A stretch of DNA of 28,859 nt from a virus: the IMG/VR virus record IMGVR_UViG_3300037486_000432, positions 1 to 28,859 of that record. One strand, written 5' to 3'. The translations under genes were made by a program, and so were the position numbers. Below, in pieces: positions 2,806 through 27,441 of this stretch. The notes under the pieces were generated by a model that had not been told where the DNA came from, did not search any database, and was given only the letters and a program-made list of their open reading frames with translations. Each line of letters starts with the position of its first letter. Within the stretch, counting starts at the first letter, position 1.

Positions 2806-2840
2806 ACAGTTACAGGTGCCGAATCACGGCAAATTGTCAA
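2806..2840 (-). promoter_or_regulatory. Putative promoter for a leaderless transcript
   Basis: On the minus strand TTGACA (2835-2840) starts two bases after the TAA stop of the upstream gene and ends 29 bases before the ATG at 2805. A TAACTG lies close to the ATG, and no Shine-Dalgarno is present. A small TGCCG/CGGCA inverted repeat lies between the two. The same TTGACA placement precedes the HNH gene and the portal gene. If TTGACA is a -35 box, transcription would begin at or next to the start codon. Confidence 0.5.
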
Positions 2841-2842
2841 TC

Positions 2843-4438
2843 TTACTTTTTGAGATTCCGTTGGAAGGCTCGAAAAGGATTCACGAGGTCCGCGCCCATT
2901 TCCGCCCAGGGGTTCACTGGCGGCGATTCGAACCGGGGAGTATACCGGGGCTCGACGACCGGCGCGGCGTTAATCGGCGCGGATTTGACCGGCGCGACTG
3001 GAGCCGCCGCCGGAGCGGCGGGAGCCGCAGCGCCTGTGTCGGCTTCGAAAGTCTGACCGTCTTTCCTCCACAGAATCTTTCCGTCAGCGCGATACACTTT
3101 CTCAAAGCCGAGCGTCTCGGGGTCCCGCGTTCCTTTCTCGCCAGCCCATCCGGAGACTTTTGCGGCTCGCACCCGAATGGAATCATAATCTGCTTTCAAA
3201 TCGGGGGTGGCAGCGCCTCCAGCGGTAGCAATGTCGGAGATTACCTTTTCCATGTCGGCACGCAAAGTGGCCTTCGCGGACTGAACCGTGGAAGAGTCTC
3301 CCACCTTCGGAAAAAAAGTGCCCTCATACCACGACTGTTCCTTCGACGAAATTGCAGCGCCAGATTCCATACGGAGAACGCCTTGCGACCAAGCGTTTTT
3401 GGCTGCCTGATAAAGTTTGACGTTCTCGGATCTAAAAAATTCCGGGAGGTGCTCGTAAATGTAGGTTCCAACGGAAGCTGGATTGAACTGGCGACGGGCC
3501 AGTTCCTCCTGGATCTCGGCAGACGTAGCGAAGCGGCCCATTGACGACTTGGCGAGAATTTGCTTCTCGGTGCCCGGTTCCCCGCCCTCTCCGGGAACGG
3601 TAGTCATAACAATGCCCTCGGGGGTCATCTGGCCTACGCCTGGCGCGACAGTTGCGGCGGGAGCCGCAGCAGGAGCGGCGGAAGCCGCAGCCACGGTGCC
3701 CGGAGCGGTGTTCAGAAAAACATCGGGGCTCGCGGGTCGTCCCAGGGACTTCCACAGCGAAAGCGGAATGGCCGTCATCGGGTAAAGATTCTCGCGGAGC
3801 TTCATGGCTTGCGCGGGATTCAATCGCCCGCTCATATCCAGCACGCCCTGGCCCTTACCCTTTCCGACGGTGAATTCCTGGTCTTTCAACTGCTTGATCC
3901 GGTCATTAACGGACGACCGAAATAGCAGCAGCGGAGCAACGTCCTCTTCATAGACTTGCCGGATCCGCGCCTGGTCCGGAACGGTCAGCCCGGTCTTCGG
4001 ATCCTGCCGGACGGGTAACTCCACGCCGAGCATCGTAAACTGGTTCGCCACCGCGTCGATGGTCCCGAAGGACTCCGCTTGCGCGATCTTGCGGGCGGCT
4101 TCCGTTCGCCGCATTTCCTTAACGTAGGGCATTTCAGCGGCGTCAAGCTCCGCCTTCTGCACCCGCGCCTTCGCCTCCACGGCGGTGGCTTGCTGAACCG
4201 CCGCGCGGGCATCCCGTGCCGCCGGAGAAAGCTGCTCCTGGTAAAGCTGCTCTTCGGCCTTTTTCTTGAGCCGCGCTCGATTGTCAATGCGCCCGATGAT
4301 GTCGTCCGCCGTGACGAAGCCCTTGTGAAAAGCGTCGACGAGCGAGGACGTGCCGCGCGGTTCGACGGGTGGAAGCGAAATCAACTCCGATACGCGCGGT
4401 TGAACGACGTCTGTATTCTGTCCAGGTCCGGTTGCCAT
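2843..4438 (-). CDS. Putative internal virion protein (531 aa)
   Basis: No family is recognised with certainty. The 531-residue protein is rich in Ala, Glu, Lys and Gln. A predicted coiled-coil or helical stretch covers about residues 48-125 (KKKAEEQLYQEQ onward). Ala/Pro-rich low-complexity linkers lie near residues 245-270 and 465-490. There is no signal peptide and no clear membrane segment. It follows the 303-residue gene with the junction TAATATG and no Shine-Dalgarno, so translation is probably coupled. Lying between two other alanine-rich proteins and the giant partial protein, it is best read as part of the set of internal proteins ejected with the DNA. This is inferred from position and composition only. 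Confidence 0.7.
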   Translation of the reverse strand: MATGPGQNTDVVQPRVSELISLPPVEPRGTSSLVDAFHKGFVTADDIIGRIDNRARLKKKAEEQLYQEQLSPAARDARAAVQQATAVEAKARVQKAELDAAEMPYVKEMRRTEAARKIAQAESFGTIDAVANQFTMLGVELPVRQDPKTGLTVPDQARIRQVYEEDVAPLLLFRSSVNDRIKQLKDQEFTVGKGKGQGVLDMSGRLNPAQAMKLRENLYPMTAIPLSLWKSLGRPASPDVFLNTAPGTVAAASAAPAAAPAATVAPGVGQMTPEGIVMTTVPGEGGEPGTEKQILAKSSMGRFATSAEIQEELARRQFNPASVGTYIYEHLPEFFRSENVKLYQAAKNAWSQGVLRMESGAAISSKEQSWYEGTFFPKVGDSSTVQSAKATLRADMEKVISDIATAGGAATPDLKADYDSIRVRAAKVSGWAGEKGTRDPETLGFEKVYRADGKILWRKDGQTFEADTGAAAPAAPAAAPVAPVKSAPINAAPVVEPRYTPRFESPPVNPWAEMGADLVNPFRAFQRNLKK

Positions 4439-4439
4439 A

Positions 4440-5351
4440 TTAGAATCTCGGTAAAGCTACGCCGCCCACGGGGTTCATTGGGGCGATCCAGGCAGACTGC
4501 GAAATGACGTTGGGCCGCGCGGCGGCGGCGGCCACTTGGGTAGTTGCGCTGTCCGAACGCAACTGCGCTTCGAGGTCCATGATCTTCTGATCGAGTTTCT
4601 GCTGCTCGGATCCTTGATACATCCCGAAGGGGTTCTGTCCGATCCTGGCGCGAAGAGTTTGCGTCTGTTGCAACTGCTGCAAAAGTTGAGAGGGCCGGTT
4701 CACCGCTTTGGTTTCGGCCGCCGTCTTCTTGGCGGTCTCCTGGATGGCTCCGGCCTGGGAAGACTGCACCTCGGGCGACACGATGTAAGAGCCAAACGAC
4801 GCCTTCGCGCCGGGCTGAATCGCCGCCGCTCGCAGCGCTTCGTAAGCGGTGTAGTCGCCAGACTCGGCGGCCGCGAAAAGTCGGTTGAGCAAATCCTGCT
4901 GGAGCGCCCGCTTCTGATATTGCTCGGAGTTCAACGCGTCGATGGACGTCTGCAAATAGTCGGGCATGTTGGTCTGCTGATAGACACTGGCCCCTATTGG
5001 AACGTTGGCTGGGAGAGTCTGCGCCGGGCTGGAATAGGCCCGCGACCCGAGCGACGCGTCGGTAAGCTTCGTCGGCGTGGCGGCGAAGTCCTCCGCACCG
5101 TAGACCTTGGCCGGCGTTGCGTCGAATCGCTGGGTCCCCGCCGTGATGCCCTCGGGGTTTACCTGGTTCGCATATTTGTAAGAAGACGTCACGCCACCCG
5201 ATGGGGTGGACGAAGTAGGCTGCGCCGTCGACCGGCCAGGAGCCGTCAGGACCCCTCCGCTCACGCCGGAGGAAGCCGGCTGTTTCGAGCTCGCCCGAAG
5301 GTAGAGCGGAGTCACCGTGCTGGAAGTCCAGCCGCTAGAAGTATTCGCCAT
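4440..5351 (-). CDS. Putative internal virion protein (303 aa, Gln/Ser-rich)
   Basis: I start this gene at the ATG at 5351, not at the upstream in-frame ATG at 5567. It lies four bases after the stop of the preceding gene and has GAGG about eight bases before it, whereas the longer version would overlap that gene by more than 200 bases. The N-terminal 60 residues are Ser/Thr/Pro-rich and probably disordered. The centre (about 125-175) is helical. Residues 205-280 form a Gln/Ala-rich coiled-coil-like stretch with QLLQQLQQTQ. No enzymatic motif is visible. Position between two alanine-rich proteins suggests a minor internal virion protein, but the function is not recognised. Confidence 0.7.
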   Translation of the reverse strand: MANTSSGWTSSTVTPLYLRASSKQPASSGVSGGVLTAPGRSTAQPTSSTPSGGVTSSYKYANQVNPEGITAGTQRFDATPAKVYGAEDFAATPTKLTDASLGSRAYSSPAQTLPANVPIGASVYQQTNMPDYLQTSIDALNSEQYQKRALQQDLLNRLFAAAESGDYTAYEALRAAAIQPGAKASFGSYIVSPEVQSSQAGAIQETAKKTAAETKAVNRPSQLLQQLQQTQTLRARIGQNPFGMYQGSEQQKLDQKIMDLEAQLRSDSATTQVAAAAARPNVISQSAWIAPMNPVGGVALPRF

Positions 5352-5355
5352 AACG

Positions 5356-6333
5356 TTATCCTCGCGTCCAATCGCCGGATGCGCTGTAACCCAAGAACGG
5401 AGACGCGGCCATGCTGCTGGAACCGCCGCCACCTCCACCGGTCGGAAGGTAGCTAGCAGCTCCGCGAGCCGCCCCGCCGATGCCCTGCGCCCACGCGGAT
5501 CCGATATCCTTGGTGCCCTGCGCGGCCACATTCGCCTGCGTCTGCGCAAGCTGGTTGGTAGCTCCAACTCGGGCCAGCCAGATGTTGGCCACGCTTTGGC
5601 CGGACAAACCCGCCTCCGGAGTCTGGGAGGCCGCCGTCTGCAAAGCGCTCTGTGTTGCCGTCAGGTTGCTTAATTGAGATTGCTTGAGCGCCGGGAAAAG
5701 TCCCTGGAGAATGTTCGCCCGGGCCAGATCGAGATTCTGCGCCGTGTTGACCATTGCCTGCGCCCGCTGCTGGCGGTCCGCTTTCAATTCGAGAGCGGCC
5801 TTGCCGATAAGCTGGCGCTGCATCGTCCCGCCGATACCCTTGGAGGTCGCCGCGCCGGTCACCGAGCCGGTTCGTTCCAAACCCGCCTGCACAAGCTCGG
5901 CCTGCACATCGCGCGGGAGAGTCGCCCCAGCGTCCAGCTCCTCAAGCGCCGTGTCGATCAGCCGGTTTTTGATTTCAGTGAAATCGCCGGTCGTGCCCAT
6001 CGCCTCGGCGGCGGCTTGACTTCCCACCACGTCGCCGGCTCCGCCTTCGATTCCTTGCAACTGCCGAAGAATCGAATCGGATGCAGCATAGCGGGTGGCC
6101 GACAAGGACGGGTCGATTATGGCCTGCAAAGCGAGCTGATTTTTCGCTCGCTCCGTGTCGGCCCCTAACGCCTGCTCGTTGATCCGGGTTGGCTCCAGCT
6201 CCTTGTAGACAAAATCCCGCTGCTTCTCCAGGGCTTTGATCTGCATTTCGGTCGCCTTTTTAATAGCGCCCGCCTCAATTGCCGATCCCGCAAGGGATCC
6301 AACCGCCCCAAAAATTCCGCCAAAGTCGAACAT
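5356..6333 (-). CDS. Putative internal virion / pilot protein (325 aa)
   Basis: The N-terminus (residues 1-25) is a Gly/Ala-rich hydrophobic segment, MFDFGGIFGAVG, followed by a charged helix with KALEKQRDFVYKELEP. This layout is common in small ejection proteins of podoviruses (T7 gp14 or P22 gp7 type) that insert into the host envelope. The middle is an Ala/Gln-rich helix-forming region. The C-terminus holds a short Gly-Ser run (GGGGGGSSS, about 301-309). It starts two bases after the preceding stop, with AAAGG five bases before the ATG, a plausible Shine-Dalgarno. The family assignment rests on N-terminal architecture and gene order, not on a diagnostic motif. Confidence 0.72.
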   Translation of the reverse strand: MFDFGGIFGAVGSLAGSAIEAGAIKKATEMQIKALEKQRDFVYKELEPTRINEQALGADTERAKNQLALQAIIDPSLSATRYAASDSILRQLQGIEGGAGDVVGSQAAAEAMGTTGDFTEIKNRLIDTALEELDAGATLPRDVQAELVQAGLERTGSVTGAATSKGIGGTMQRQLIGKAALELKADRQQRAQAMVNTAQNLDLARANILQGLFPALKQSQLSNLTATQSALQTAASQTPEAGLSGQSVANIWLARVGATNQLAQTQANVAAQGTKDIGSAWAQGIGGAARGAASYLPTGGGGGGSSSMAASPFLGYSASGDWTRG

Positions 6334-6334
6334 G

Positions 6335-7186
6335 TTAGCCTTTCGTCAGGGTCCAGAGATAGATGCTCGGGGGATAGGGCACCGTCGACGCCTCCGCCGG
6401 CACTGCGCCGCCGTGAGTGTGGGTAGCCATGGAGATACTGTCCGTTTCGCCGATGATTTCTCGCGCAGCGCGATGCGCCACGCCAGCATTGGTCGTCAAA
6501 TCCGTCTCGGGTGCTCCTCCCGTGTCTTTCGTGGCCTGGCCAAGAAGCCGCCCGCGCCACGCCTGGTTGTCGCCACCGAGAAGCTGCCATCCGGGATTCC
6601 GGCGGAGCGCATCGGTCAGGCTTTCATGGGTCACCTGCTTGACGTCGCCGGGGCACCCGGCCACGGTCCGCCACATTCCGCGTTCCCACCAAATCAGGCA
6701 GGAAATGTCGGTGTCGTAAAACTGCTGGTATTCGAGCGGGTCGGCGGGACGGTTGGCCGTGCCACCCGAGAGAACAATGCTCACGTAAGGCATCCAGAAA
6801 GAACCGTTGTAGAGATACCAGCCGAGCGGGTTCCCGTAGTTGGGACTCGCCTGGGTGGCATCGGCGGTCGTGCGGAGCCAGATTGGCGGCGTGCTGGACG
6901 ATGGCGCAACCGCGCCGATCCAGAACCAGCGCGTCTCCGAGTCGGAGATATCGAGCGGCACGTAGCGCTTGATCCCGTCGTCGAAAACATACCACTTGAT
7001 GCCGTCGCGCAGCCAGGGGCCGACGTTCGACGTGGGTTCCGAATCGCCGATGTATATGAAATTGGTCCCTGTAGGAGAGACAATTTTCATGCGCCGGATG
7101 GCCTCTTCCATCAACCCTTGCGGGCTGGTCCGGAGCGTCTCCGGCAGCCGAGACATCTGTATTATGAGGTTCGTATCCTGGAGCAT
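6335..7186 (-). CDS. Tail collar-type fibre protein
   Basis: This 283-residue protein ends like phage tail-collar domain proteins. A THTH motif (255-258) with Gly and Pro after it leads to PYPPSIYLW (270-278), the usual terminus of collar or short-fibre domains. Before it comes a segment with WQLLGGDNQAWRGRLLGQA. The N-terminal half is rich in Trp, Tyr and Asp (for example DGIKWYVFDDG), suggesting beta structure that contacts the tail or carries receptor-binding loops. Family members are structural fibres, often trimeric. It begins just after the HNH gene stop with only an AGAAAG-like weak ribosome site, and precedes the internal virion genes. A receptor role is inferred. Confidence 0.75.
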   Translation of the reverse strand: MLQDTNLIIQMSRLPETLRTSPQGLMEEAIRRMKIVSPTGTNFIYIGDSEPTSNVGPWLRDGIKWYVFDDGIKRYVPLDISDSETRWFWIGAVAPSSSTPPIWLRTTADATQASPNYGNPLGWYLYNGSFWMPYVSIVLSGGTANRPADPLEYQQFYDTDISCLIWWERGMWRTVAGCPGDVKQVTHESLTDALRRNPGWQLLGGDNQAWRGRLLGQATKDTGGAPETDLTTNAGVAHRAAREIIGETDSISMATHTHGGAVPAEASTVPYPPSIYLWTLTKG

Positions 7187-7187
7187 T

Positions 7188-7928
7188 CTATCTGCTTTCT
7201 TTGCGCCCCTTGGCCAGATTGTCCCTGGCCCACAAAGGCTGCAAGTTTGAAAAGTGAAAGCACTTTTTCTGTTGTTCCCCGTCTGTCAAATCGAAACTCG
7301 CGCACGGCCGGATGTGGTCGATGTGCCAGCTCCCGTAGTTGTCCCAGGTCATGCCGGGCTGAAATTGCTGTTCGAGGTGCACCCGAAGTTCGGGGACCGA
7401 GCAGCCTAACAATTCCATGGTGTGGGCGGCTTTTGCGCCGATCCCACGAAGCGCGTTTTTAACCCGATTCCGGCAATTCAGCAGCACCCGAAAACCCGGG
7501 TCGTTCTTACAGCGGTCCCGCCGGTAGGTCACCACGTAAGCCTGCATTTTCTCCAGGTTCCGCTCCCGCCACGCATAAACGCCGGCGAGCACCTTCTCTG
7601 GGTTGGCGGCCCGCCACTTCCGATTCCATGCAAGGAACTTCCCCGGGTCGGCAGCATAGCTCGCTCGCTGCCGCTCCCGGGCCGCCGCAGCGGCTGTCTC
7701 CCGGTTGTTGGCATACCACTTCCGGCACGCCGCCCGGGCCTTCTCTCGGTTGGCGGCCTGCCATGCCCGGCTTGTCGCGGTATCCCTTTCCCGATTGGCC
7801 GCATGCCACTTCCGGCGTGCCGCATTAGCCTTCTCCGGGTTGGCGGCTCGCCACGCCCGCGCCGCCGCGAGCATCTTCTCCCGGTTGGCCAGGTAATACT
7901 GCCGCTTCTGTTCTTTTCTATCGCTCAC
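7188..7928 (-). CDS. HNH endonuclease with eight 15-residue repeats
   Basis: The C-terminal domain carries an HNH nuclease core. It has HIDH (202-205), then the conserved FxNLQPLW segment with N228 and a DNLAKG end (N237). HNH enzymes of this kind cut or nick DNA and are frequent free-standing homing nucleases in phages. The N-terminal half (about 12-135) consists of eight imperfect 15-residue repeats of the pattern xAANxEKxxAxxRxW, probably a basic helical DNA-binding array. The start is GTG at 7928. An overlapping ATG two bases upstream is out of frame and hits TGA at once. The gene lies between two fibre genes and has its own TTGACA promoter-like site, consistent with an inserted selfish element. 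Whether it still moves cannot be judged. Confidence 0.88.
   Translation of the reverse strand: MSDRKEQKRQYYLANREKMLAAARAWRAANPEKANAARRKWHAANRERDTATSRAWQAANREKARAACRKWYANNRETAAAAARERQRASYAADPGKFLAWNRKWRAANPEKVLAGVYAWRERNLEKMQAYVVTYRRDRCKNDPGFRVLLNCRNRVKNALRGIGAKAAHTMELLGCSVPELRVHLEQQFQPGMTWDNYGSWHIDHIRPCASFDLTDGEQQKKCFHFSNLQPLWARDNLAKGRKESR
7524..7895 (-). repeat. Imperfect 45-bp tandem repeats in the HNH gene
   Basis: Eight units, each about 45 bases, encode the repeat with the core AANREK/AANPEK and a terminal Trp. The DNA copies diverge but keep a common GGTTGGCGGC-like core on the plus strand. One unit (around residues 86-104) is expanded to 19 residues. The pattern points to expansion by unequal crossing-over or slippage followed by divergence. 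Confidence 0.8.
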
Positions 7929-7963
7929 ATCTAATTAGTGCCACGCGCTCGGCGGTTTGTCAA
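7929..7963 (-). promoter_or_regulatory. Putative promoter for a leaderless HNH transcript
   Basis: TTGACA (7958-7963, minus strand) lies in the 52-base gap before the HNH gene and begins 35 bases upstream of its GTG start. CACTAATTAG follows about 17 bases later. There is no Shine-Dalgarno. Spacing and flanks (TTGACAAA, then 17 bases, then CTAA) match the site upstream of the portal gene. Confidence 0.5.
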
Positions 7964-7980
7964 TCTCGTTTTTTCCAGGG

Positions 7981-17821: not shown

Positions 17822-18871
17822 TTACGCCTCCACCGCGTAGGCGGCGACAATGTTCGCGTCCGCCGCTCCGTAGCAGCGGAGGGACAGCATCGCGGTCTTT
17901 CCGGCGGCAATGAGCGCGGGTTCCGTTCCAACGAAGATCCACGCCGGAAAAGTGAAATTCCGGTCGGAGCCGTCCGCCAGAATCTTGAGGGTTACCTCTT
18001 TGCCGGCCGCGACGTTCGTTGTGGTAAACTGCACATCCCCGGTTAGGGAGATAGTGCGCTGGCCTCCAAGATTGAAGTCGATTGCCGTGCTGGCGTTGTA
18101 AGTCAGAACCGACTGCGCCTGCACAACGTTGCCGTAGTTGTTGATTGAGAAAACCGAAGCCGTATTTCGGTGAAGGTCAAGCGCCTTCGAACCGGAAGCG
18201 CTGTTGTCGTCGTCGATGTCGACCTTGAGCCCGGTGAAGGTGGTTCCGCCAGCGTCCCAAAAAGGAGCGATCCGGGTGTCCCCGTTCCAGGCCATTTCGA
18301 TTCGCGTGACGGACACAAGCGAATCAGCCGGGGCATTGAGAACCCTGAATACGCCCTCGCCGGCCGACTGGTTCAGGGTCGTAACAGTCGCACAACCCTT
18401 AGCTCCCGCGTAATTCTCGCCGGCTATTTCAAAATAAGCGCCCCGGGCTTTGGAGTCGGCACTCATAACCGCCAGCGCACTCTGGGCGTTTGACAAAAAA
18501 ATCCGGCGGTCCACGGCCAGCGCCGCGCAGTCGAACTGAACATTTCCCGTCGCACCAACCACTCGGAAGGACTCCACAGTCCCTCCGGTATGGAGCACGA
18601 TTGCGTCCGCATCGGTGACGCTGTCTCGAAAATTAACCGGGACGTCAATGACAACGTTCCCCGTCATTCCGTTGACACTCTGCACGGGAACCGGAACAGT
18701 GACCGCGCCGGTCATCCCGTTGACACTCTGCACGGGAACCGGAACAGTGACCGCGCCGGTCATCCCGTTGACACTTGTGACAACTGAACCGGACGCGATG
18801 GCTTGAGCGATCTTGCCGAGGAGCGTGGTGTCTGAATCGCCTACGCAAGGTCTTGTATTTGCGAACATCAT
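17822..18871 (-). CDS. Modular tail fibre with SVNGMTG repeats (349 aa)
   Basis: The N-terminus (MMF, then GDxxxxLLxKIxQA, residues 1-24) matches that of the 47-residue protein just upstream. Residues 33-80 hold three copies of a 16-residue repeat beginning SVNGMTG, a motif frequent in phage tail fibres and side-tail proteins. Residues 81-270 are beta-rich with no recognised enzyme motif. Residues 274-349 (ISLTGD to DANIVAAYAVEA) are a second copy of the C-terminal domain of the 223-residue collagen-like fibre. It begins one base after the stop of the 47-residue gene, with no clear Shine-Dalgarno. A fibre with swappable ends is the likely role. Confidence 0.8.
   Translation of the reverse strand: MMFANTRPCVGDSDTTLLGKIAQAIASGSVVTSVNGMTGAVTVPVPVQSVNGMTGAVTVPVPVQSVNGMTGNVVIDVPVNFRDSVTDADAIVLHTGGTVESFRVVGATGNVQFDCAALAVDRRIFLSNAQSALAVMSADSKARGAYFEIAGENYAGAKGCATVTTLNQSAGEGVFRVLNAPADSLVSVTRIEMAWNGDTRIAPFWDAGGTTFTGLKVDIDDDNSASGSKALDLHRNTASVFSINNYGNVVQAQSVLTYNASTAIDFNLGGQRTISLTGDVQFTTTNVAAGKEVTLKILADGSDRNFTFPAWIFVGTEPALIAAGKTAMLSLRCYGAADANIVAAYAVEA
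18671..18766 (-). repeat. Two perfect 48-bp tandem repeats
   Basis: Bases 18671-18718 and 18719-18766 are identical and code for a 16-residue unit starting SVNGMTG. A diverged third unit follows in the protein (SVNGMTGNVVIDVPVN). Identity including silent positions indicates a recent duplication, so repeat number could vary between relatives. Confidence 0.92.
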
Positions 18872-18872: not shown

Positions 18873-19016
18873 TCAAGAGAAAGTAGCCAACCATTTTCGG
18901 AGCAACCGGTTTATCGAGTCCGCCGGGCACGGATATCCGCCCCTTGCCTGGACAATTTTGGCAAGTAGAATCCACTTGCCATCGCCAGGCAAAGGTGTAG
19001 TGTCTTTGAACATCAT
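18873..19016 (-). CDS. Tiny gene (47 aa) sharing its N-terminus with the next fibre
   Basis: A 47-codon frame starts at the ATG at 19016, which overlaps the stop of the 209-residue gene as ATGA, and ends with TGA one base before the ATG of the 349-residue fibre. It exactly fills what would otherwise be a 140-base gap. The product begins MMFKDTTPLPGD and has LLAKIVQA. Aligned with the next protein (MMFANTRPCVGD, LLGKIAQA), the pattern MMFxxTxPxxGDxxxxLLxKIxQA is shared. A second motif DSINRLLRKW resembles it. The GDxxxxLLxKI pattern may be a binding peptide for a common tail or capsid partner. The gene is strongly supported by junctions and homology, but its function is unknown. Confidence 0.72.
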   Translation of the reverse strand: MMFKDTTPLPGDGKWILLAKIVQARGGYPCPADSINRLLRKWLATFS

Positions 19017-19642
19017 TCTGGCCGGTCACCTTGCTCCGGTCGTTCCGGGTCATCCTGATCGTCCTGATCGTCCTGATCATCCTGATCATCCTGGTCATCC
19101 TGATCATCCTGATCGTCCTGGTCATCCGGAACGGAAGGCTCGTCTGGAACCTGATCCGAAATATCCGGAATATCGCCATCGTCGATAACCTGAGCGTCAA
19201 GACAAAGAAGAACTCGCAGCAGAGTAGAAAATGGAGAATGCTGGATCCCGTAGCTGAAAGGCCCGAAGCATCCAGTGCAGGTGAACCCGCAGGTCCCCTC
19301 AAAAATGGCGTTGAGTTCGTAAGCGGTCTTCTCGTCGATGCCTTGCGCCTCGCCGCCGCTGTTGCAACGGCCCATCCGTTGGAGGATGCACGCGATTCTC
19401 GCCCGGTTGGCAGCGCTAAGAATCTGCCCGCGTTCGATATAAAGAAGGAGCGCGATCATCGTGAAAAACGGCTGGTCTCTCAAATACGAAGCAAGAACGC
19501 AACTGAGTCCGGGGAAGACCCGAAAAACGTCGTTGACCACATAGACTGCGCGTTCGCCGACGGTTTTACCGGCGGGACCTTTTTCGAGGTAGTCGAGAAG
19601 GCACAGAAGTTTGGACCGCTGAGTCGCTGATAAGATGGCCAT
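19013..19642 (-). CDS. Protein with acidic (DDQ)8 tail (209 aa)
   Basis: The first 150 residues are helical and cysteine-rich, and contain an internal duplication: ILSATQRSKLLCLL (3-16) and ILSAANRARIACIL (74-87). A CGFTCTGC cluster lies at about 118-125. Residues 173-196 are eight DDQ repeats, followed by a short acidic end. Acidic low-complexity tails can mimic DNA or bind basic partners, and the gene is the first after the major capsid, but no family is recognised. The ATG is preceded by a U-rich stretch without a Shine-Dalgarno. It overlaps the 47-residue gene by ATGA. Confidence 0.75.
   Translation of the reverse strand: MAILSATQRSKLLCLLDYLEKGPAGKTVGERAVYVVNDVFRVFPGLSCVLASYLRDQPFFTMIALLLYIERGQILSAANRARIACILQRMGRCNSGGEAQGIDEKTAYELNAIFEGTCGFTCTGCFGPFSYGIQHSPFSTLLRVLLCLDAQVIDDGDIPDISDQVPDEPSVPDDQDDQDDQDDQDDQDDQDDQDDQDDPERPEQGDRPE
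19051..19122 (-). repeat. Eight 9-bp tandem repeats encoding DDQ
   Basis: Eight units of CRTCCTGRT (plus strand) run without interruption and code for (DDQ) repeats at the C-terminus of the 209-residue protein. The units differ only at two purine positions. Copy number is likely to change by slippage. Confidence 0.92.
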
Positions 19643-19698: not shown

Positions 19699-19710
19699 TT
19701 ATTCACCTAC

Positions 19711-19727
19711 CCTCGATGTTTTCGAGG
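19711..19727 (-). other. Second hairpin after the major capsid gene
   Basis: CCTCGA and TCGAGG form a 6-bp stem with a 5-base loop, 13 bases past the capsid stop codon and just before the 11-bp hairpin. The pair of hairpins may act together in processing or attenuation. Confidence 0.45.
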
Positions 19728-19740
19728 TCTAAGCTCTCGC

Positions 19741-21018
19741 TCAGTCCTCGCAGACACCGACAGTCGAAAACGAGTCGGCCCCGCTGTAGGAGCTGGCGTC
19801 GACGTCGCAGCAGTTCACGAGACCCAGGTCGGCCTTGCAGCGCCGATACAGAATGTGGATGATGTGCTGCGGGCGTTTCGGGCGGTAGGCCCGAGTGATC
19901 TGATACTTGTGCCAACCGTAGTCGCCCCACTGGTTGCACGTATTGTCAATGACATAGTGCCAGGACAGCTCTCCCGCGTGAAGCTGAGGAGCGAACTTGA
20001 AGCTGCCCTCGCCCACATACCGCTCGGGAACGAGCCGCTCGAACGAGCCGGTCGCGACAAAGGTGCCGACTTCGTAGTCAGCTTCCAGCCAAGCCGGATT
20101 GACTTTGGCGTAGGCCGTATTCTTGAGCGCGTTGGTCACGATAACCACGGGGTCAACCAAGGCGAGCGTGCCGTCCGGGTTGAAACCGGTAGCGCGAAGC
20201 GGGCGCTGGTCGATACCGAAAGCGATGCCGCGATAGGCGGGACTCTGCTCGAACCCGTAGGCCGTGAGCATCGTCTTGCCCATTTCGTATCCGCCTTCCG
20301 TCAGCGCGATTGCGACGTTATTGACGCCGATCTCGGTGCGGAAATATTCAACCTGGTCGTGAGACCCGATGAACCGGAAATGGGGCATCCCGTTGGAGCT
20401 GGAATACCACTCGCCGAAAAGGACTTCGCGCAGATACCCCGCGAGGTATTGCAGCGCTTTGAAGGTCATGGGACCCGTCGGGAGCAACGGGGCGAACTGA
20501 ACGCCCAGGTCGGTCTCGGAGCCGCCGGTCCACAGCGAGGCGAAATCGTAGTTCGCATTCGCGGTGAATTTGCTCGCGCCGCGCAAGTAGAGCTGGGCTC
20601 GCACGTCGGCGTTGATGTATTGGACGATCAGCTTCTTCAAGCTGTCTTCCGCGCTCTCGTAGCTGCCCTTGAAAGCAGAGAAGCCTTTCTTGACGCAGAC
20701 GTTCGGGCCGCGACCACGGAAAGACTCCAGTTCGACGTTGAAGTCGATGGTGTCGGTTTTGTCCTGATGGCCGAGCTGTCCGCAGAGTTCGGTGTCACAG
20801 ACGAAAGAAGGAATTGCGAGCGAATCCCCAGGAGCCGCTTGCATCTGGACGATGTTGCGGATTGAGTCGCTGGTGCCGGACGGAAAGGTTCCGCCGCCAA
20901 TGAGGTTCAGGTAAGGCGCATTCGCGGCCAGGGCTCGCGCGATAGATCCAACGATTCGGTTGGTGTCTTTCGAGGCGATATCACTGATGGCCGGGGCGTC
21001 TTCGCAGGTATAAGCCAT
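19741..21018 (-). CDS. Probable major capsid protein (425 aa)
   Basis: Position and setting point to the major capsid protein. It follows the portal and scaffold genes, has by far the longest structured leader in the window, and is followed by strong hairpins, as expected for a highly expressed gene. The length, 425 residues, fits HK97-fold capsid proteins. The N-terminal 70 residues are small-residue-rich (NLIGGGTFPSGTSD). Pairs of cysteines (C74/C79 and a CC near the C-terminus) are notable. I see no diagnostic motif, so the fold is inferred. The ATG lies just after a small inverted repeat and has no Shine-Dalgarno. Confidence 0.75.
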   Translation of the reverse strand: MAYTCEDAPAISDIASKDTNRIVGSIARALAANAPYLNLIGGGTFPSGTSDSIRNIVQMQAAPGDSLAIPSFVCDTELCGQLGHQDKTDTIDFNVELESFRGRGPNVCVKKGFSAFKGSYESAEDSLKKLIVQYINADVRAQLYLRGASKFTANANYDFASLWTGGSETDLGVQFAPLLPTGPMTFKALQYLAGYLREVLFGEWYSSSNGMPHFRFIGSHDQVEYFRTEIGVNNVAIALTEGGYEMGKTMLTAYGFEQSPAYRGIAFGIDQRPLRATGFNPDGTLALVDPVVIVTNALKNTAYAKVNPAWLEADYEVGTFVATGSFERLVPERYVGEGSFKFAPQLHAGELSWHYVIDNTCNQWGDYGWHKYQITRAYRPKRPQHIIHILYRRCKADLGLVNCCDVDASSYSGADSFSTVGVCED

Positions 21019-21209
21019 AACTAAGAGTCTCCGAGACTGATTTTTGGCGTCTCTCCCAACTCCGGCTAATTTCCGCCGAAGTGGATCTTGTGTGTGCTAC
21101 CGTGCTGTGGCCATCAGCGTTAGGCCGTGCCCCGGGAGCCGCGCGAGACGCCTAGTAAGGCTCACTGCTACCTTCTGCCAAAAATCGAGAAAATGTAAAC
21201 CCCGATTTT
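21019..21209 (-). promoter_or_regulatory. Structured leader region of the major capsid gene
   Basis: This 191-base stretch is the longest non-coding gap in the window. It contains GGCGTCTC (21046-21053) paired with GAGACGCC (21145-21152), which would close a large structure. AGTCTC/GAGACT (21026-21038) lies 8 bases before the capsid ATG. No clear -35/-10 promoter is visible. It may hold a processing site, a promoter for a phage-specific polymerase or a translation-control element. A possible 22-codon GTG reading frame inside it is not convincing. Confidence 0.55.
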
Positions 21210-21210
21210 T
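21180..21210 (-). terminator. Possible weak terminator after the glycosyltransferase block
   Basis: AAAAATCG and CGATTTTT form a perfect 8-bp inverted repeat with a 15-base loop, starting in the stop codon region of the 246-residue gene. A-run and U-run arms resemble an intrinsic terminator, but the GC core is only two base pairs (extended by G-U pairs). It may separate the glycosyltransferase block from capsid transcription. Confidence 0.4.
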
Positions 21211-21950
21211 CAGCGGCCGAGAAACTGCCGGCGAGCCATCCGGTAAAGCGAATCGTCCTTGACGCCGTGAACGAACGAGTGCTCCCGCAAGCAATACTTG
21301 AAGGTATCCTCGTCCAATGTGGCTCGTCCGCAACAGTTCCACATGCGAGGAGAAAATTCCACGCCCCACCGGGCGAATTTTGGGAACAAGTAGATATCCC
21401 ACGCCTCTTTGGCCGGCACACCGCTAACCGTGACCCCCTTAACAAGCCACGTCAACCAGTCCATGTCCCCGGAGCACATGAGGTTACCGTTGGCATGGTG
21501 GTGGTAGTGATACGTTTCCGCGCCCACGATGTAGACTTTGTTCGGGCTGTTTAAACGGTCCCATTCGGCGTGCATTTCCGACAGCCAGTTTTTTGAAGTC
21601 GGGCAACAGTCGGCTTCAAAGGGGAAGATCCATTTGTAGTCCGGGATTTTTCTGCCTCGTCGCATATTGTAGAACCACTCGACGGCCGAGAACCAAAGCA
21701 CCCAGGACCCCCAGGGGTGCCCGGCCGCCCGGCTCGTGGTTGTGAGCAGGTGCGTGTTAAACCGGCCGGACACCTTCTTGACGGTGGCCGGATCGTGTCC
21801 AGAATCGAATCTGGCGACGAAGAGAAAATCGGTGTCCTGGCGCTTGACCGGCTCCAGGTCCGCCAGAAAATTGGCCAGCCGGAGCGCCTTGGGTCTGTCA
21901 CCTGGCCAAAATTGCACGGCCACTAAACCCTTCTGTGGTTTTTCACTCAT
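21210..21950 (-). CDS. Glycosyltransferase-like protein, GT-A type (246 aa)
   Basis: The fold is judged from pattern. An N-terminal alpha/beta region (VAVQFWPGDRPKALRLANFLADL) precedes strands ending in KWIFPFEADCCP (106-117), where EAD sits like the DxD metal-binding motif of GT-A enzymes. HHHANGNLMCSGD (150-162) and EHSFVHGVKD (223-232) are also likely metal or substrate sites; a late HG motif is common in GT-A enzymes. The DxD is degenerate, so activity is uncertain. It lies four bases after the 237-residue glycosyltransferase-like gene and is the last gene before the capsid leader. Confidence 0.6.
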   Translation of the reverse strand: MSEKPQKGLVAVQFWPGDRPKALRLANFLADLEPVKRQDTDFLFVARFDSGHDPATVKKVSGRFNTHLLTTTSRAAGHPWGSWVLWFSAVEWFYNMRRGRKIPDYKWIFPFEADCCPTSKNWLSEMHAEWDRLNSPNKVYIVGAETYHYHHHANGNLMCSGDMDWLTWLVKGVTVSGVPAKEAWDIYLFPKFARWGVEFSPRMWNCCGRATLDEDTFKYCLREHSFVHGVKDDSLYRMARRQFLGR

Positions 21951-21953
21951 AAT

Positions 21954-22667
21954 CTACCGGTAGATGTGCCAGGGAGCCCGCATTTGGGGCGGGCCAGCCT
22001 GCGTGTAGTGCTTCGCGTAGGCGTGCCACACGAGCTTGGTGTTGTGGAGATACCCCAGAGCGTAAAGGGACTCCGCCAAATTCAAATAGGAGGAGTCGAT
22101 ACAGTGCACCTCCTGCGCGGCCAGCACCTGCGGCATCCAATCCCACGCGGACGGACGGGGCGTGACAAAAATGTGCTTCAAATTCGCAGGGAGAAGTTGG
22201 CGAACCACATTGAACGCCCGGCTCGGATCCTCGTGGATCAGCGCCACCGGCTCTTTTTGGGTAGGCTCCGCCATCCGGAGAGAAGGAGGGAGCTGGAAGG
22301 CGGACCAGCGCAGGTTGAAATTAATCCCGAGCTGGTGGTAGAAAGACTCGTCCCAGCGGTCGATATTGAAGCCCGAATCCGCGAATAGGCCGAGCCGCTT
22401 CGCATCAAGACACGATGGGATCCAGCGGAACCGGACGTCATCGTAACCGAGCGCCCCTAACACTTGGATTTGGGGAAGGTCTCCGTAGAGCCTTCGAACA
22501 TCCTGGATGTATTTAATGTCTGTCAGGATGATCATGCTCTTCGTGGTCGCCGCCAAGGTGCGGTAGAGTCCGTTCAGAATCAAGGCATCGCCCAACTCAA
22601 GGTGCCCGAAAATGACCAGTTTGTCCGGGGGAGACGGGATGTTGGTGCCCCTAGGAAATGATTTCAT
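21954..22667 (-). CDS. Glycosyltransferase-like protein, GT-B (GT9-like) type (237 aa)
   Basis: The N-terminus KLVIFGHLELGDALILNGLYRTL resembles the LGD-containing nucleotide-sugar fold start of heptosyltransferase-type (GT9) enzymes. Near the end, EVHCIDSSYLNLAESLYALG matches the donor-binding Asp-Ser-Ser, then Ala-Glu, motif of the same class. At 237 residues it is shorter than typical GT9 enzymes (about 320-350), so part of a domain may be missing or the family is reduced. It overlaps the preceding glycosyltransferase by ATGA. A sugar-transfer role is likely by motif, but donor and acceptor are unknown. Confidence 0.65.
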   Translation of the reverse strand: MKSFPRGTNIPSPPDKLVIFGHLELGDALILNGLYRTLAATTKSMIILTDIKYIQDVRRLYGDLPQIQVLGALGYDDVRFRWIPSCLDAKRLGLFADSGFNIDRWDESFYHQLGINFNLRWSAFQLPPSLRMAEPTQKEPVALIHEDPSRAFNVVRQLLPANLKHIFVTPRPSAWDWMPQVLAAQEVHCIDSSYLNLAESLYALGYLHNTKLVWHAYAKHYTQAGPPQMRAPWHIYR

Positions 22668-23584
22668 GGGGTGTTAGGGGTCTTTTGAAAAGTGTTATAG
22701 GGGCCGTAAACGCACGTCCCGATATGGCCGCACACGAGCCCCAAGTCCACGTGGGCCACGTGGCCGGACTCGTTTGACCGGATGCAGAACGTCACGTCTT
22801 CGCCCATGCCGAGCGATGAATTAGTTCGAGCGCGGGTCAGTGCCTGCTCCACTTTCTCGTAAGCCGCAAGACACTTTTCTCCGGTCATCGGACCCTTGGA
22901 CAGCAAGTCCTGGAGCAGTTCCAGATCCCTGATGGCGCTGTGCTCGGACGAGGTAAACCACTGCCCGCCTTTGCCGCCCTTCCGGGCCAGGTTCGGGTAG
23001 CGCTTCTCAACAGCTTCATAGACCGCCCGGTGAATCAACAGGCAGCCGGTGGCAACCCAGCGGGTCGGGACAACCTCGTCGTGCGGAGCTTTGCGGGCGT
23101 GCGCGGACATGCCCGGGGTATTCGCGCCCTCGCCAAACATAGGTGCCCCGTGCCGATGTCTCCCGAAGTAGAGAGCGCCAACCAGCGTTTTCTGGTGACC
23201 GAGCAACCGCTCCAGCGCGTTGAAAGAAGCGAAGGGTTCCTTGAGGTTGAATCCCGTATTTCCGTTGAACCACTTGGCGCTTCCGAAGGGAACAACCATG
23301 TCATCGTCAATGGTGAGCATCCAATCACAATTTGATTTAAGAAACAGGTCGGCGCAGGAATTCCTGGAATGCGCCACAAATGCGTCACCATGATTGAGCG
23401 CTACCGAATGCCGCCGATTGTCAATGAGTCGCATCACCGAGTAGGCGGTGATCGGGTTGGTCATTTTTCCCCATGGCAAAACAACCATGACCTTTTCGTT
23501 CACATAACGCGTCTCAAATACCTTGCGCGGCGACGTAGCGACAAGCGGAATGCCAGAAGCTTTATCCGGTCCCTCGGTGCTCAC
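22664..23584 (-). CDS. Glycosyltransferase, GT-A (GT2-like) type (306 aa)
   Basis: This has the clearest glycosyltransferase motifs of the three. After the first strand (KVMVVLPWGKM) comes HSRNSCADLFL (72-82), then DWMLTIDDDMVVP (87-99), whose DDD at 93-95 is the metal-binding DxD site. LVGALYFGR (134-141) and GEDVTFC (261-267) with an acidic pair fit the catalytic base. VCGHIG (284-289) provides the C-terminal metal-binding His. The start is GTG at 23584, overlapping the scaffold stop as GTGA. Such enzymes transfer sugars to phage or host surface molecules, or to modified DNA bases. Which one applies here is not shown. Confidence 0.78.
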   Translation of the reverse strand: MSTEGPDKASGIPLVATSPRKVFETRYVNEKVMVVLPWGKMTNPITAYSVMRLIDNRRHSVALNHGDAFVAHSRNSCADLFLKSNCDWMLTIDDDMVVPFGSAKWFNGNTGFNLKEPFASFNALERLLGHQKTLVGALYFGRHRHGAPMFGEGANTPGMSAHARKAPHDEVVPTRWVATGCLLIHRAVYEAVEKRYPNLARKGGKGGQWFTSSEHSAIRDLELLQDLLSKGPMTGEKCLAAYEKVEQALTRARTNSSLGMGEDVTFCIRSNESGHVAHVDLGLVCGHIGTCVYGPYNTFQKTPNTP

Positions 23585-24930
23585 AGATTGGCGCGGCTCC
23601 GTTCATTGATAATCTGATCCCGGATGGCATCCAGCGCGGAGCCGGTATTGCCGCCGAAAAAGTCGTCCTGCTTCGTGGGCAGCGGCCTGTTTCCTGGCGC
23701 GGGCGCGGCGGAGTCTTTCAGCCGGCCGACGCTGGCTTTCTTGAAGCGTTCCAGCTTCTCTTTCAGCTCGTCGCGCTCCTTCGTAATCGCCGTGAGTTGC
23801 GCCACGGCCGACTTATGCACGTTCTGGAGGTTGAAAAACTGGGCCAGCCCTGTCAACAGCGTCGCCCGCATCTTCGGGGAATCGTCGTCGAGCGCGACTT
23901 TCAGCTCGCCCCGGATCTGGCGCACGAACTGGTTGTGCGCTGTGGCGGCTTTCTTCTCTTCCTCGGTAGCGCCCGCTTTAGGGGCCTGATCTTTCGTCCA
24001 CTGGAGATTGCCGAGAAAATCGTTCAAGTGCTGCTCGGTGGCCCGGTTGTGCGAAACGGCGCTGTCCTGCCACGCCTTCTCGCGCTCGGACACATAGGCC
24101 GCGACGTTCTCCTTGGCGGACTTCATCGCGTTCTCCCGATTGAACTTGTGCAGTTCGATGTCGGTCAGCTTCTGTTCGACGATGCGCCGGATCGTGCCGT
24201 CTTCCACGGTCTCCAGAATCTTCTCCATCTTGACGGCCGACGGACCCCCGTATTTCCGAATCGCGTTGATCGTATCGTCGTCGACGCTGGGGGACTTCCG
24301 GAGCTGCGCGTAGATGAATTCCTCGGCTTGTGCAATATCCGTGTTCCACTTTTTGAACTGCGGATCCGCGTCGATGTCGAGCTTGGCCCGGAACTTCCGA
24401 AGGTCTTCCAGTTCGGCCTTCGTCTCCTGGGGCACCGGATCCGCCAGCTTGGTCTTGGCGTCTTCCAGTTCCTTGGTCAGCGCTGCGAGCTTTTCATCAT
24501 ATTCGTGGTAACGCTGCGACGCCTGGGTCTTCACAAAAGCGAAAGCTTCGTGCGACTTCCGGCTCGCGCCCTCGGGGAGCTGCGGCGCGTCTTTGAACGG
24601 ATCTTCGACCTGGACTTCTGGTTTCGGCTCGGGATCCGGCGCGGGGTCCGGCGCTGGGTCAGGCGCGGGATCCGGAGCAGGGTCAGGGTCCGGCGCGGGG
24701 TCCGGCGCGGGCTCTTCCTTCGGCTCCACCTTCGCCGGCACGGGTTCCGGCTCCGGCGCGTCCTCCGCCAACTTCGCTTTCTGCTGCTCCAAAAGCTTGT
24801 CCAACGCACTGCCGGTATTCGGGTCGAATTCCGGCGTTAAGTTGGCGCTGCCCTGGGCAACGAGTTTGTCATGGACCGTTTGGTTCTCTGCGGCTAGGTC
24901 CTTGAAGCCGGGCTTCGGTGTTTCTGACAT
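23581..24930 (-). CDS. Putative scaffolding protein (449 aa)
   Basis: I start at the ATG at 24930 (MSETPKPGF), nine bases past the previous stop codon, rather than at the in-frame ATG at 24966 inside that gene. Residues about 75-100 are a PAPDP low-complexity arm. Residues 110-420 are charged and helical with long coiled-coil stretches, and there are no cysteines. This composition, and the place after the portal gene and upstream of the capsid gene, are typical of scaffolding proteins that guide shell assembly. The same heptapeptide NTGSALD occurs near both ends (residues 38-44 and 428-434). No Shine-Dalgarno is seen; coupling with the upstream gene is likely. Confidence 0.75.
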   Translation of the reverse strand: MSETPKPGFKDLAAENQTVHDKLVAQGSANLTPEFDPNTGSALDKLLEQQKAKLAEDAPEPEPVPAKVEPKEEPAPDPAPDPDPAPDPAPDPAPDPAPDPEPKPEVQVEDPFKDAPQLPEGASRKSHEAFAFVKTQASQRYHEYDEKLAALTKELEDAKTKLADPVPQETKAELEDLRKFRAKLDIDADPQFKKWNTDIAQAEEFIYAQLRKSPSVDDDTINAIRKYGGPSAVKMEKILETVEDGTIRRIVEQKLTDIELHKFNRENAMKSAKENVAAYVSEREKAWQDSAVSHNRATEQHLNDFLGNLQWTKDQAPKAGATEEEKKAATAHNQFVRQIRGELKVALDDDSPKMRATLLTGLAQFFNLQNVHKSAVAQLTAITKERDELKEKLERFKKASVGRLKDSAAPAPGNRPLPTKQDDFFGGNTGSALDAIRDQIINERSRANL

Positions 24931-24938
24931 AGGGTAGG

Positions 24939-25253
24939 TTAGGTGGTTTTTTGTCCGTCGGCCCACCGGTCGTCATCCAGCGGGTCGGGGTAGCTTCTGC
25001 TGTGGGTTGCTTGATCCGGAACGGAAGGCGGGGGAAGTGTTAGGGCCAGGATACTTTTCGCGGCCGATCCCCAAGCCGCCACTTCGCCGGATCGGATAAG
25101 AATCTCGTTTGTCGGGCCTCCGTGAAGAAGCTGCGGGACCTCTTCCAGAAGCTTCGGGAGAAACTTCTGGCCGGTTGCGGTATTCAAGAACGCTCGGAAT
25201 ACCGCGCGATCTTCGCTGGACCATTCGGTGCTATCGGGGGTGATTTCTATCAT
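24939..25253 (-). CDS. Small hypothetical protein (104 aa)
   Basis: The protein is acidic and mostly helical in its first 80 residues (DRAVFRAFLNTATGQKFLPKLLEE), then Pro/Asp-rich. The sequence gives no recognised family. It lies ten bases after the portal stop, with an AAAGG-like ribosome site, and just before the scaffold gene, a position where podoviruses often keep small head-assembly proteins. Function is otherwise unknown. Confidence 0.7.
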   Translation of the reverse strand: MIEITPDSTEWSSEDRAVFRAFLNTATGQKFLPKLLEEVPQLLHGGPTNEILIRSGEVAAWGSAAKSILALTLPPPSVPDQATHSRSYPDPLDDDRWADGQKTT

Positions 25254-25263
25254 AGGTGAACCT

Positions 25264-27405
25264 TTACGGCATCAGGGCGGCGTCTTCCGCCGGCCCGAGC
25301 TGCTCCTGCTCCTGGTCGATTGCCGCCGATGCGTCCTGCACCTGGCCGGCCTGCGCGTCCAGCGCTTTCAATTCCTCCATGGCTTTCAGCGCCTTCTTCA
25401 CAAAATCCAGATAGGGCTTCATTTCCTCCTTGGAAACGCCCGAGTTGAGCCCCTGGTTGGTATGCTCGTTGACGTGGAGCACGACGGTCTCCAAAACCGG
25501 GATGCCCATCTGCCCCTGCATAACTCCGCCCGCCACTTTCTCGGCGAACGGCATGAGCGTTTCAAGGTGAATCACGTGGCCGTCTCTCGGGGAGACCGGC
25601 ACGGGGATGCCCTGCATAAGGAGCGCCAGCTCGATCTGCTGCGCCCGCTGCTGCTCGGCCTGCACGGTCGGATCGTTGTCGGGGAGCAACACCCGCTTCG
25701 CGAATTCGGAGTCGACCCGCGCGGTGATGTCTTCGAGTTCGAGCTGCCGCTGGTTGTAAAGCGGGTTGCCTTTCTTCTCGGAAGCCACCGCGACAACCAT
25801 CTGCCGCTGCATCGGGGTAAGATCCCGGATCGTCTCGGCGGGCGGGCACTCGGCCAACTCGTCAAGCTCTTCCTTCGACATGATTTCAAGCATGGCCTTC
25901 TGGAACGCCTCCGCGTCGTCCTCGGTCGTGTCGGGGTCGCAAATGCGCTTCTGCATCGTGTGCACCATCTGCAAAAACTGGGTGAGGAACCGGCCGATCC
26001 GGTGGTCCTTGTTTTCCTCCTCGCGGGCGGTGGTGATGTTCCATGCGGCCGAGCTGCGCATCGCCTCGCCCGTCGACGGCGCGATAGGCGACACGTTGCC
26101 GATAAGTTGGTCGACCAAACTCTGAAAATACGCGTCCAGCCGGAGAAAAGGCTCCACGTTGCCGTCGAACTTCTGCTCCAGCACGGTCCATCCCTGCGGC
26201 ACGATCACCATGGCCCCGATCACGCTCATTTTGAACTTGTGGAGCTGCCTCGGGTCTCCCTGAATCAACGTCTTGCCGGAGAGGATGGTCCGGTCCGCCG
26301 CCTCGTTGCGGCCACGGTCGAGCATCGCGGCCAGCTCGTAAATGTCGCGGCCCACGCCCTTGGAGCCGTGCATGGTGCCGGTCCCGCGCTGAAACGCGAA
26401 GAACGCCAGGCACTCTTCCATGCTGTCGAACCGGTCGTCCTGCGAGAAAAGCGGAAGGAGGTCCGGCCCGCCCAGGCGGTAGTGGCTCACCTTGCCCGTG
26501 ACTTCGCGGACCAAAATCGAGTAGGACGGGATCACGCCCGCGCCGCTCATGTAGGAGGTCCCCACGCTGAGGTCTCTCTCGGCGTGCTGATACCACGATT
26601 CGGCCGCATATCCGCCGGTCGTCAGTTGGTCGCGGATGCCGGCCGGGGTGGCGTTGTTAATGAGCTTGATGGCGTTGTTCACGTCCCAGCCCACAACTTC
26701 GGCGGCCTCGCGGTCCTTGATCTCTTCGTAGAGTTCGTGCGGCAGGTAGGTCTCCTTGAGCACAACCAACTGGCACGAGCTCACGCACTGCTTGGTGCCG
26801 TCGGGGAGCAAAAATTCGTCGTGCCGGTGATGCTTCGGGAACCACGTAAACTCGTCCAGCCAGCTCACCACGCTGTTTCCCCACAGCGCGTTGTCGAGGG
26901 CCACGTTGCCGATCAGATCCGCCCACTCTTTGCGGGAACGGATCAGCTTGGTCACGCCCTCGCGGAACTTCTCGGTCTTCACGGAGCTGCCGTCCCACAA
27001 GGACGAGAGCTTGGCCGAGGTCAAATACTTGAGACTGGCAATCGCCTCCTCGAACCGGGGAGACACTTTCTCGATCATGGCGGGAAGCGGCTTGGTCGTG
27101 AAATTCGACCGCCAGCCGAGCCCCTGGTTCTCCAGAGACTTCTGCTCATACGGCCGCTCCGCATTATACTTGGCGAAAATCCGGTTGTTGACGGTATGCC
27201 GGACCCGGTTGGACTCGGCAACGGCCATGACGATGTCTTTCGCCTGGGCCGCGTCCCTTATGGCACGCCGGCGGGGCTTGCCGCCGCTCTCCGGGATGTC
27301 GGGACTCTGCGTTAGGGAACCCGTGCCGTCGGTAGTCGACCGGACGTAATCGTTGACGTTCTCGGGGAGTTTGCCTCCGCGCTCGAACTTGTTACTTTCT
27401 GCCAT
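25264..27405 (-). CDS. Portal protein (713 aa)
   Basis: This protein forms the 12-fold ring through which DNA is packaged and ejected. Length (713) and place between the terminase and the scaffold fit podovirus portals of the P22 or N4 size class. The N-terminal part (about 50-200) has the helical, charged stretch usual for portals (AESNRVRHTVNNRIFAKYN, WADLIGNVALDNALWGNSV, then FTWFPKHHRHDEF). The C-terminal 150 residues form a helical, Glu/Gln-rich end. The ATG at 27405 has no Shine-Dalgarno but a TTGACA 36 bases upstream. I see no closer family. Confidence 0.82.
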   Translation of the reverse strand: MAESNKFERGGKLPENVNDYVRSTTDGTGSLTQSPDIPESGGKPRRRAIRDAAQAKDIVMAVAESNRVRHTVNNRIFAKYNAERPYEQKSLENQGLGWRSNFTTKPLPAMIEKVSPRFEEAIASLKYLTSAKLSSLWDGSSVKTEKFREGVTKLIRSRKEWADLIGNVALDNALWGNSVVSWLDEFTWFPKHHRHDEFLLPDGTKQCVSSCQLVVLKETYLPHELYEEIKDREAAEVVGWDVNNAIKLINNATPAGIRDQLTTGGYAAESWYQHAERDLSVGTSYMSGAGVIPSYSILVREVTGKVSHYRLGGPDLLPLFSQDDRFDSMEECLAFFAFQRGTGTMHGSKGVGRDIYELAAMLDRGRNEAADRTILSGKTLIQGDPRQLHKFKMSVIGAMVIVPQGWTVLEQKFDGNVEPFLRLDAYFQSLVDQLIGNVSPIAPSTGEAMRSSAAWNITTAREEENKDHRIGRFLTQFLQMVHTMQKRICDPDTTEDDAEAFQKAMLEIMSKEELDELAECPPAETIRDLTPMQRQMVVAVASEKKGNPLYNQRQLELEDITARVDSEFAKRVLLPDNDPTVQAEQQRAQQIELALLMQGIPVPVSPRDGHVIHLETLMPFAEKVAGGVMQGQMGIPVLETVVLHVNEHTNQGLNSGVSKEEMKPYLDFVKKALKAMEELKALDAQAGQVQDASAAIDQEQEQLGPAEDAALMP

Positions 27406-27441
27406 ACAAATGTTAGTGTGCGGGAAGACCTAATTTGTCAA
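27406..27441 (-). promoter_or_regulatory. Putative promoter for a leaderless portal transcript
   Basis: TTGACA (27436-27441, minus strand) begins 36 bases upstream of the portal ATG, and CTAACATTTG lies next to the ATG. The TGA stop of the upstream gene overlaps the TTGACA. No Shine-Dalgarno is visible. The layout matches the sites upstream of the HNH and giant internal protein genes. Confidence 0.5.

Follow-up and report, generated by a model that had tools for sequence, protein, structure and literature searches.

Candidate late promoters with a TTGACA/nACTnTT architecture close to start codons in a family of uncultivated phages

Three late genes of an uncultivated soil phage carry the hexamer TTGACA at almost the same distance from their start codons. 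Does this spacing mark a class of promoters whose RNAs would begin at or near the start codon and, if so, what would read them? The window is the whole 28,859-base record IMGVR_UViG_3300037486_000432, which holds minus-strand late genes only.

TTGACA sites and -10 elements in the window

The initial annotation had reported TTGACA 36, 35 and 35 bases upstream of the start codons of the portal, HNH and giant internal protein genes, and we re-found all three copies at exactly these positions. The predicted promoter elements and their genes are as follows.

27436..27441, minus strand: -35 element TTGACA of the portal promoter, starting 36 bases before the ATG at 27405
27411..27418, minus strand: -10 element CACTAACA of the portal promoter, 17 bp after the -35 element, first base 13 nt before the ATG at 27405
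25264..27405, minus strand: portal gene, whose transcript is predicted to begin at the ATG or 1 nt upstream of it
7958..7963, minus strand: -35 element TTGACA of the HNH promoter, starting 35 bases before the GTG at 7928
7933..7940, minus strand: -10 element CACTAATT of the HNH promoter, 17 bp after the -35 element, first base 12 nt before the GTG at 7928
7188..7928, minus strand: HNH endonuclease-like gene with a GTG start, predicted to be leaderless from the spacing
2835..2840, minus strand: -35 element TTGACA of the giant-gene promoter, starting 35 bases before the ATG at 2805
2811..2818, minus strand: weak -10 element CACCTGTA of the giant-gene promoter, 16 bp after the -35 element, first base 13 nt before the ATG at 2805
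1..2805, minus strand: 5' part of a giant virion/internal protein gene, which runs off the contig

The HNH gene had PHROG matches to HNH and endonuclease VII families, and tblastn aligned the giant gene to giant open reading frames (ORFs) of related phages at 25-37% identity; its orthologue in relative G002 is 2621 aa long. The TGA within the portal TTGACA also terminates the ORF ahead of it, which is 88 aa long. A search for Rfam matches in the window returned none.

TTGACA was not enriched as such, with 13 copies in the whole window against 9 expected. Its placement, however, departed from random expectation: three of the nine minus-strand copies lay 35 or 36 bases from one of the 27 gene starts in the window, an outcome that was reached in none of 200,000 trials in which the nine copies were placed uniformly. 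The TAA-containing hexamers originally noted just before the starts (CTAACA, CTAATT and TGTAAC) had to be rejected as -10 elements. They lie 19-20 bp past TTGACA, too far downstream, and overlap the predicted -10 elements; the hexamers found 17, 17 and 16 bp after TTGACA are CACTAA (portal), CACTAA (HNH) and CACCTG (giant gene). Scored with a PWM from whose training the window had been excluded, CACTAATT reached 21.4 bits, making it the top-scoring site of the window, and CACTAACA reached 11.6 bits. The PWM score of CACCTGTA was weak, at 8.9 bits.

The three genes had also been singled out for lacking a Shine-Dalgarno sequence. None was present at any of them, but this is not peculiar to them: in the window, a GGAG/AGGA/GAGG-type match is found at only about 25% of the genes, compared with 12% of control positions, and matches in relatives were mostly near background. 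Weak Shine-Dalgarno use is the norm across the whole phage family, so we dropped its absence as a mark of these genes.

The bipartite element and start codons in relatives

Searching IMG/VR with the portal protein yielded 29 related viral contigs, a number that a profile search raised to 143, whereas the same protein had no matching record among isolate phages. Gene calls in these metagenomic sequences came from a simple home-made caller applied to fifteen long or mid-size contigs and to ten contigs of 60-75 kb. A host could not be named from prophage or genome matches, as the single match (44%, to a Peribacteraceae MAG contig) was too weak.

What the relatives share upstream of the portal gene is an ACT-type element, for example GCACTGTTTA or GACTGTTT, rather than TTGACA; many of their portal upstream regions have no -35 element. 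An unbiased 6-mer search of 56 distinct portal upstream regions ranked ACTGTT first (21 against 0.4 expected). The pattern ACTNNT was found there in 41 out of 56 distinct relatives, where shuffling gave about 6 and a control region 2, and in several of the portals outside the 41 the start had been called too far upstream, with the element preceding the next in-frame ATG. Random-start EM returned purine-rich coding bias first and the ACT element among the motifs that followed.

Where the -35 element is present, its distance to the ACT element is tightly fixed. TTGAC-N18-CACT (equivalent to TTGACA-N17-CACT) occurred 26 times, including 18 intergenic occurrences, whereas other spacings gave about 3. 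In ten later genomes, which had no part in that count, TTGAC-N18-nACTnnT produced 23 matches, 21 of them intergenic, against 0-3 intergenic matches at other spacings, CACT having been widened to nACT after inspection of portal upstream regions that included those of the ten genomes, where about one site per genome had thus already been seen. A full-motif matrix scan at 9 bits was too noisy for counts, with matches barely above the null, and we therefore used the spacing-scan statistics. That the three window sites belong to a promoter class common to a large uncultivated phage family is well supported by these comparisons; the putative class consists of TTGACA, 17 bp and a -10 element [C/G/A]ACTnTT, with a sharp spacing optimum.

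The predicted portal and giant-gene promoters are retained at orthologous positions in near relatives. In L094 (CACATAAA) and L102/G019 (GACTTGGT), whose portal proteins are the most similar at the N-terminus, TTGACG-N17 stands at the same place before the portal gene, with the -10 element 12-14 bases from the ATG and with unrelated letters in the spacer. Among giant-gene orthologues, that of G019 has TCGACA-N17-CACTAGCT ahead of its ATG, and those of G016 and G021 have ACT-type promoters with the -10 elements CACTGTTT and CACTATTT, respectively. The constant spacing first described, with TTGACA 35-36 bases before the start, holds within the window; across the family, many members lack the -35 element, and the distance from the -10 element to the start varies, at about 9-22.

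Sites of the ACT class were concentrated on the strand of the portal and other late genes (68 out of 76). Several of the eight early-strand sites precede one shared small gene of 56-67 aa (in G002, G016, G020, G025 and G026). The same phages also contain a host-like class, TTGACA-N16/17-TAnnnT, with 35 intergenic matches against about 2.6 per spacing elsewhere, and only 14 of 33 sites of this class lay on the late strand (Fisher p = 6e-7).

The usual sigma-70 geometry runs from -12 to +1. From this geometry and from the mapped starts of phage 7-11, described below, the RNA start is predicted to coincide with the start codon or to fall no more than a few bases away from it. Gene starts lay within 100 nt of 43 sites; in 28 of these, the first -10 base preceded the start codon by 11-16 nt, a distance seen at 7.9% of intergenic positions (p = 5e-21). 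At some ACT-class sites, the predicted leaders would reach up to about 10 nt. The distances of 12, 13 and 13 nt in the window agree with the spacing of about 12 bp used to recognize leaderless genes; indeed, it is such -10-to-start geometry that defines leaderless genes in bacteria (PMC3160421, PMC12340547), and the geometry of the phage family matches it. With the first base of the -10 element about 12 bases ahead of the start codon, the mRNAs would be leaderless or nearly so, and we infer that they would be translated by 70S/leaderless initiation. About half of the relatives carry an initiator-like tRNA-Met gene.

The proposal of leaderless promoters therefore gains from the bipartite element, the spacing optimum and the start distances in relatives. 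Its tie to late promoters of selected genes needs correction: in the TAnnnT class the -10 element lies 11-13 bases before the start in 10 out of 19 sites. Since this host-like class would be equally leaderless, leaderless starts appear to be general in these phages and not special to late genes.

The capsid gene is an exception with a long leader, represented in the window by the following features.

21194-21199, minus strand: -35-like TTTACA of the predicted capsid promoter
21019..21199, minus strand: conserved capsid leader, from an alignment of 10 leaders
19741..21018, minus strand: major capsid protein gene, so called because of its location and conservation

The capsid protein is 75-80% identical in most relatives. 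At the corresponding place, 130-180 bases upstream of the gene, relatives have TTGAC-N18-nACT, followed by the conserved leader. The window version is TTTACA-N17-AGAAGG, without an ACT-type -10 element.

A candidate phage sigma factor

A single profile detected a sigma-70-family gene in all 16 relatives of at least 60 kb (16 out of 16; E 1e-42 to 1e-117), with one such protein of 200-300 residues per genome. Region 4 (PF04545, Sigma70_r4) scored above the curated cut-off in G002, G003, G008, G014 and G016, and region 2 (PF04542, Sigma70_r2) matched weakly, at E 0.003, below the cut-off. The profile also matches FliA and SigB-type factors, aligned over region 2, and the phage proteins conserve the sequence FFAFxKxYxRG. 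Sigma chains were the best structural matches of a model whose global confidence was low (pTM 0.46). The gene had no match in the window, which comprises 28.9 kb of late genes, the early half of the genome being outside the contig.

At the position corresponding to W434 of sigma70, an equivalence that we infer through the FliA alignment, five phages with G or A as the first -10 base have G, and ten other phages, most of which favour C as the first base, have Y, D or H. These residue/base groups largely follow the phylogenetic tree. On the portal tree, G027, with H at this position and CACT among its sites, falls inside the G clade, an observation that is suggestive only.

Judging from the co-occurrence of gene and element, the phage-encoded sigma probably reads the [C/G/A]ACTnTT promoters. 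We consider it likely that host RNA polymerase (RNAP), together with this sigma-70-family factor, which would comprise regions 2 and 4 only, recognizes the promoters and switches on the late genes as leaderless or near-leaderless mRNAs. TTGACA/TAnnnT promoters would serve the early genes, transcribed by the host primary holoenzyme. The phage sigma, encoded on the early strand, would then redirect host RNAP to TTGACA/nACTnTT late promoters. With both promoter classes, RNA synthesis would begin on or close to the start codon, and translation would then start on a leaderless or near-leaderless mRNA. A bolder version, a dedicated leaderless programme with its own sigma, a -10 specificity co-evolving with one region 2.4 residue, RNA starts on late start codons and a tRNA-Met that could boost initiation, is possible but decidedly tentative.

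The alternative that survives best, though we think it unlikely, is that a host alternative sigma reads the ACT-class promoters, the phage sigma serves something else, and late timing comes from host physiology or another phage regulator. The TTGACA -35 element is, after all, common to the host-type class of these phages, and the sigma-element link is one of co-occurrence, with a residue/base association that follows the tree. Yet no long genome lacks the sigma gene, most copies of the element lie on the late strand, and a host factor would leave unexplained why the first -10 base varies with the region 2.4 residue.

Ordinary sigma-70-type promoters with a degenerate -10 element and no special sigma, their leaderless placement being a by-product of compact genomes, seem improbable to us. 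Such an account can point to the TTGACA-N16/17-TAnnnT sites and to their own closeness to start codons, but nACTnTT recurs as a class of its own, tied to a fixed spacing and differing in strand bias, and compact genomes alone put only about 8% of positions at 11-16 nt. We give very little credence to nACTnTT acting in the mRNA, as a substitute for Shine-Dalgarno sequences in translation initiation, instead of as a promoter -10 element: it does lie near the start codons of genes without such sequences, but it is locked 17 bp from TTGAC and also occurs 130-180 nt upstream of the capsid start codon. Least credible of all is a chance or post hoc pattern from one window, for which the unremarkable TTGACA count and the high score of only one of three window sites on the relatives' matrix would speak, against the position test, the portal conservation across 56 phages and the replication in later genomes, which already contradicts it.

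The CACTA core also resembles the promoter cores of T7, SP6 and T3. A search for PF00940 RNAP in 17 records gave no match, with the controls equally silent; we set aside promoters of a T7-like RNAP because the coupling to TTGACA and the sigma gene fit better with a phage sigma acting with host RNAP.

Known systems and meaning for the family

In function, the predicted promoters are closest to the late promoters of Salmonella phage 7-11 (Grimontviridae, phiEco32-like), whose gp47 sigma reads GTAAtg-(16)-aCTA, with RNA starting 6-9 bp from aCTA (PMC8948821). Common to both would be a phage sigma, host core RNAP, bipartite late-gene promoters and an ACT-containing -10 core. The 7-11 promoters differ in having GTAAtg as the -35 element and a 16-bp spacer, compared with TTGACA and 17 bp here, and leaderless placement is not described for them in the text available from that source (PMC8948821). 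In hhalign comparisons, the family sigma and portal gave probabilities of 0.5% and 0.2% against 7-11 gp47 and portal, with no detectable homology, and we rejected phiEco32/7-11-like membership because both comparisons failed.

phiEco32 likewise uses a small phage sigma with the host core enzyme for middle and late transcription, with gp36 reading tAATGTAtA promoters. These differ in being a single element without a -35, and the sigma is said to be without region 4 homology, which is clear here (PMC4331800, PMC8948821). Leaderless genes of Actinobacteria and Deinococcus-Thermus resemble the phage genes in having a -10 element about 12 bp from the start, no Shine-Dalgarno sequence and little or no 5' UTR, but their -10 element is TANNNT and is read by the primary sigma, whereas the phage class has another -10 element beside a host-like class (PMC3160421, PMC12340547). 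The late TATG promoters of phiKZ, as cited in PMC5312081, are similar in that the start site is at the G, inside the TATG sequence; they differ in being read by a phage multisubunit RNAP and in having no -35 element.

The known kind to which these sites would belong is that of phage-sigma late promoters, and what is new is the -10 consensus and the leaderless placement. For a widespread uncultivated family (143 IMG/VR contigs by portal alone), the analysis predicts a transcription programme built on two classes of promoter and puts forward a protein that could act as the switch. The family also supplies numerous sigmas with their matching promoters, among which a single residue co-varies with a single base, and these would allow a direct test of -10 recognition. 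Phage late expression would be linked to leaderless translation, so that the DNA sequence by itself may suffice to predict start codons, and the first hosts to test would be those with efficient translation of leaderless mRNAs.

Predicted promoters in the window and its relatives

The late-type promoter (TTGACA-N17-[C/G/A]ACTnTT) recurs before a small early-strand gene in five related viral contigs (G numbers), whose 56-67-aa product reads MPVTIRK...TTPxKAxxQxRLLNAVEHG.

G002:26346, G016:57188, G020:41277, G025:4522, G026:61475, minus strand, 56-67-aa gene

The relatives also carry host-type promoters of the form ATTTGACA-N16/17-TATATT-like, with the ATG 12-13 bases from the -10.

G003:7048 and G003:7658, host-type promoter
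G014:38016, host-type promoter
G018:10779, host-type promoter
G020:42609, host-type promoter
G021:45008, host-type promoter

Judging by this -10-to-ATG distance, the genes behind them are predicted to be leaderless, and these are probably early genes.

In the window, the TTGACA of the portal gene includes the TGA stop codon of an upstream 88-aa ORF (27438-27441, minus strand). Three further TTGACA copies, 48 bases apart, are part of a coding repeat (VNGMTGAVTVPVPVQ) in the minus-strand gene 17822-18871; they are not promoters.

18672-18677, 18720-18725, 18768-18773, plus strand, TTGACA copies

Separately, window gene 19013-19642 (minus strand) ends in a long tandem repeat, DQDDQDDQDD.

Capsid gene leader

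A capsid gene leader of 130-180 nt is kept among the window and its relatives, with the core GAGACGGCCTAA...TGGCC-ACAGCG and weak covariation. An Rfam search with the window gave no match.

Window 21019-21199, minus strand, conserved capsid leader
G002 60104-60254, conserved capsid leader
G004 19266-19429, conserved capsid leader
G013 11220-11044, conserved capsid leader

A possible host hint and initiator-like tRNA genes

The sole portal relative in the species-genome collection (locus L091, 44% identity) lies on a 12.7-kb contig binned with a Candidatus Peribacteraceae MAG, at best a hint of the host.

A tRNA-Met(CAT) gene was found in 13 of 24 non-redundant contigs, including G004, G007, G020, G021, G025 and others.

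L034:4763-4835 (G003), tRNA-Met(CAT) gene
L044:14614-14691 (G014), tRNA-Met(CAT) gene
L046:3812-3888 (G016), tRNA-Met(CAT) gene

Judged by eye, most are initiator-like, the marks being A11:U24 (D stem GAGC/GCTC) and U1 facing A72. A phage-carried initiator tRNA would fit leaderless initiation.
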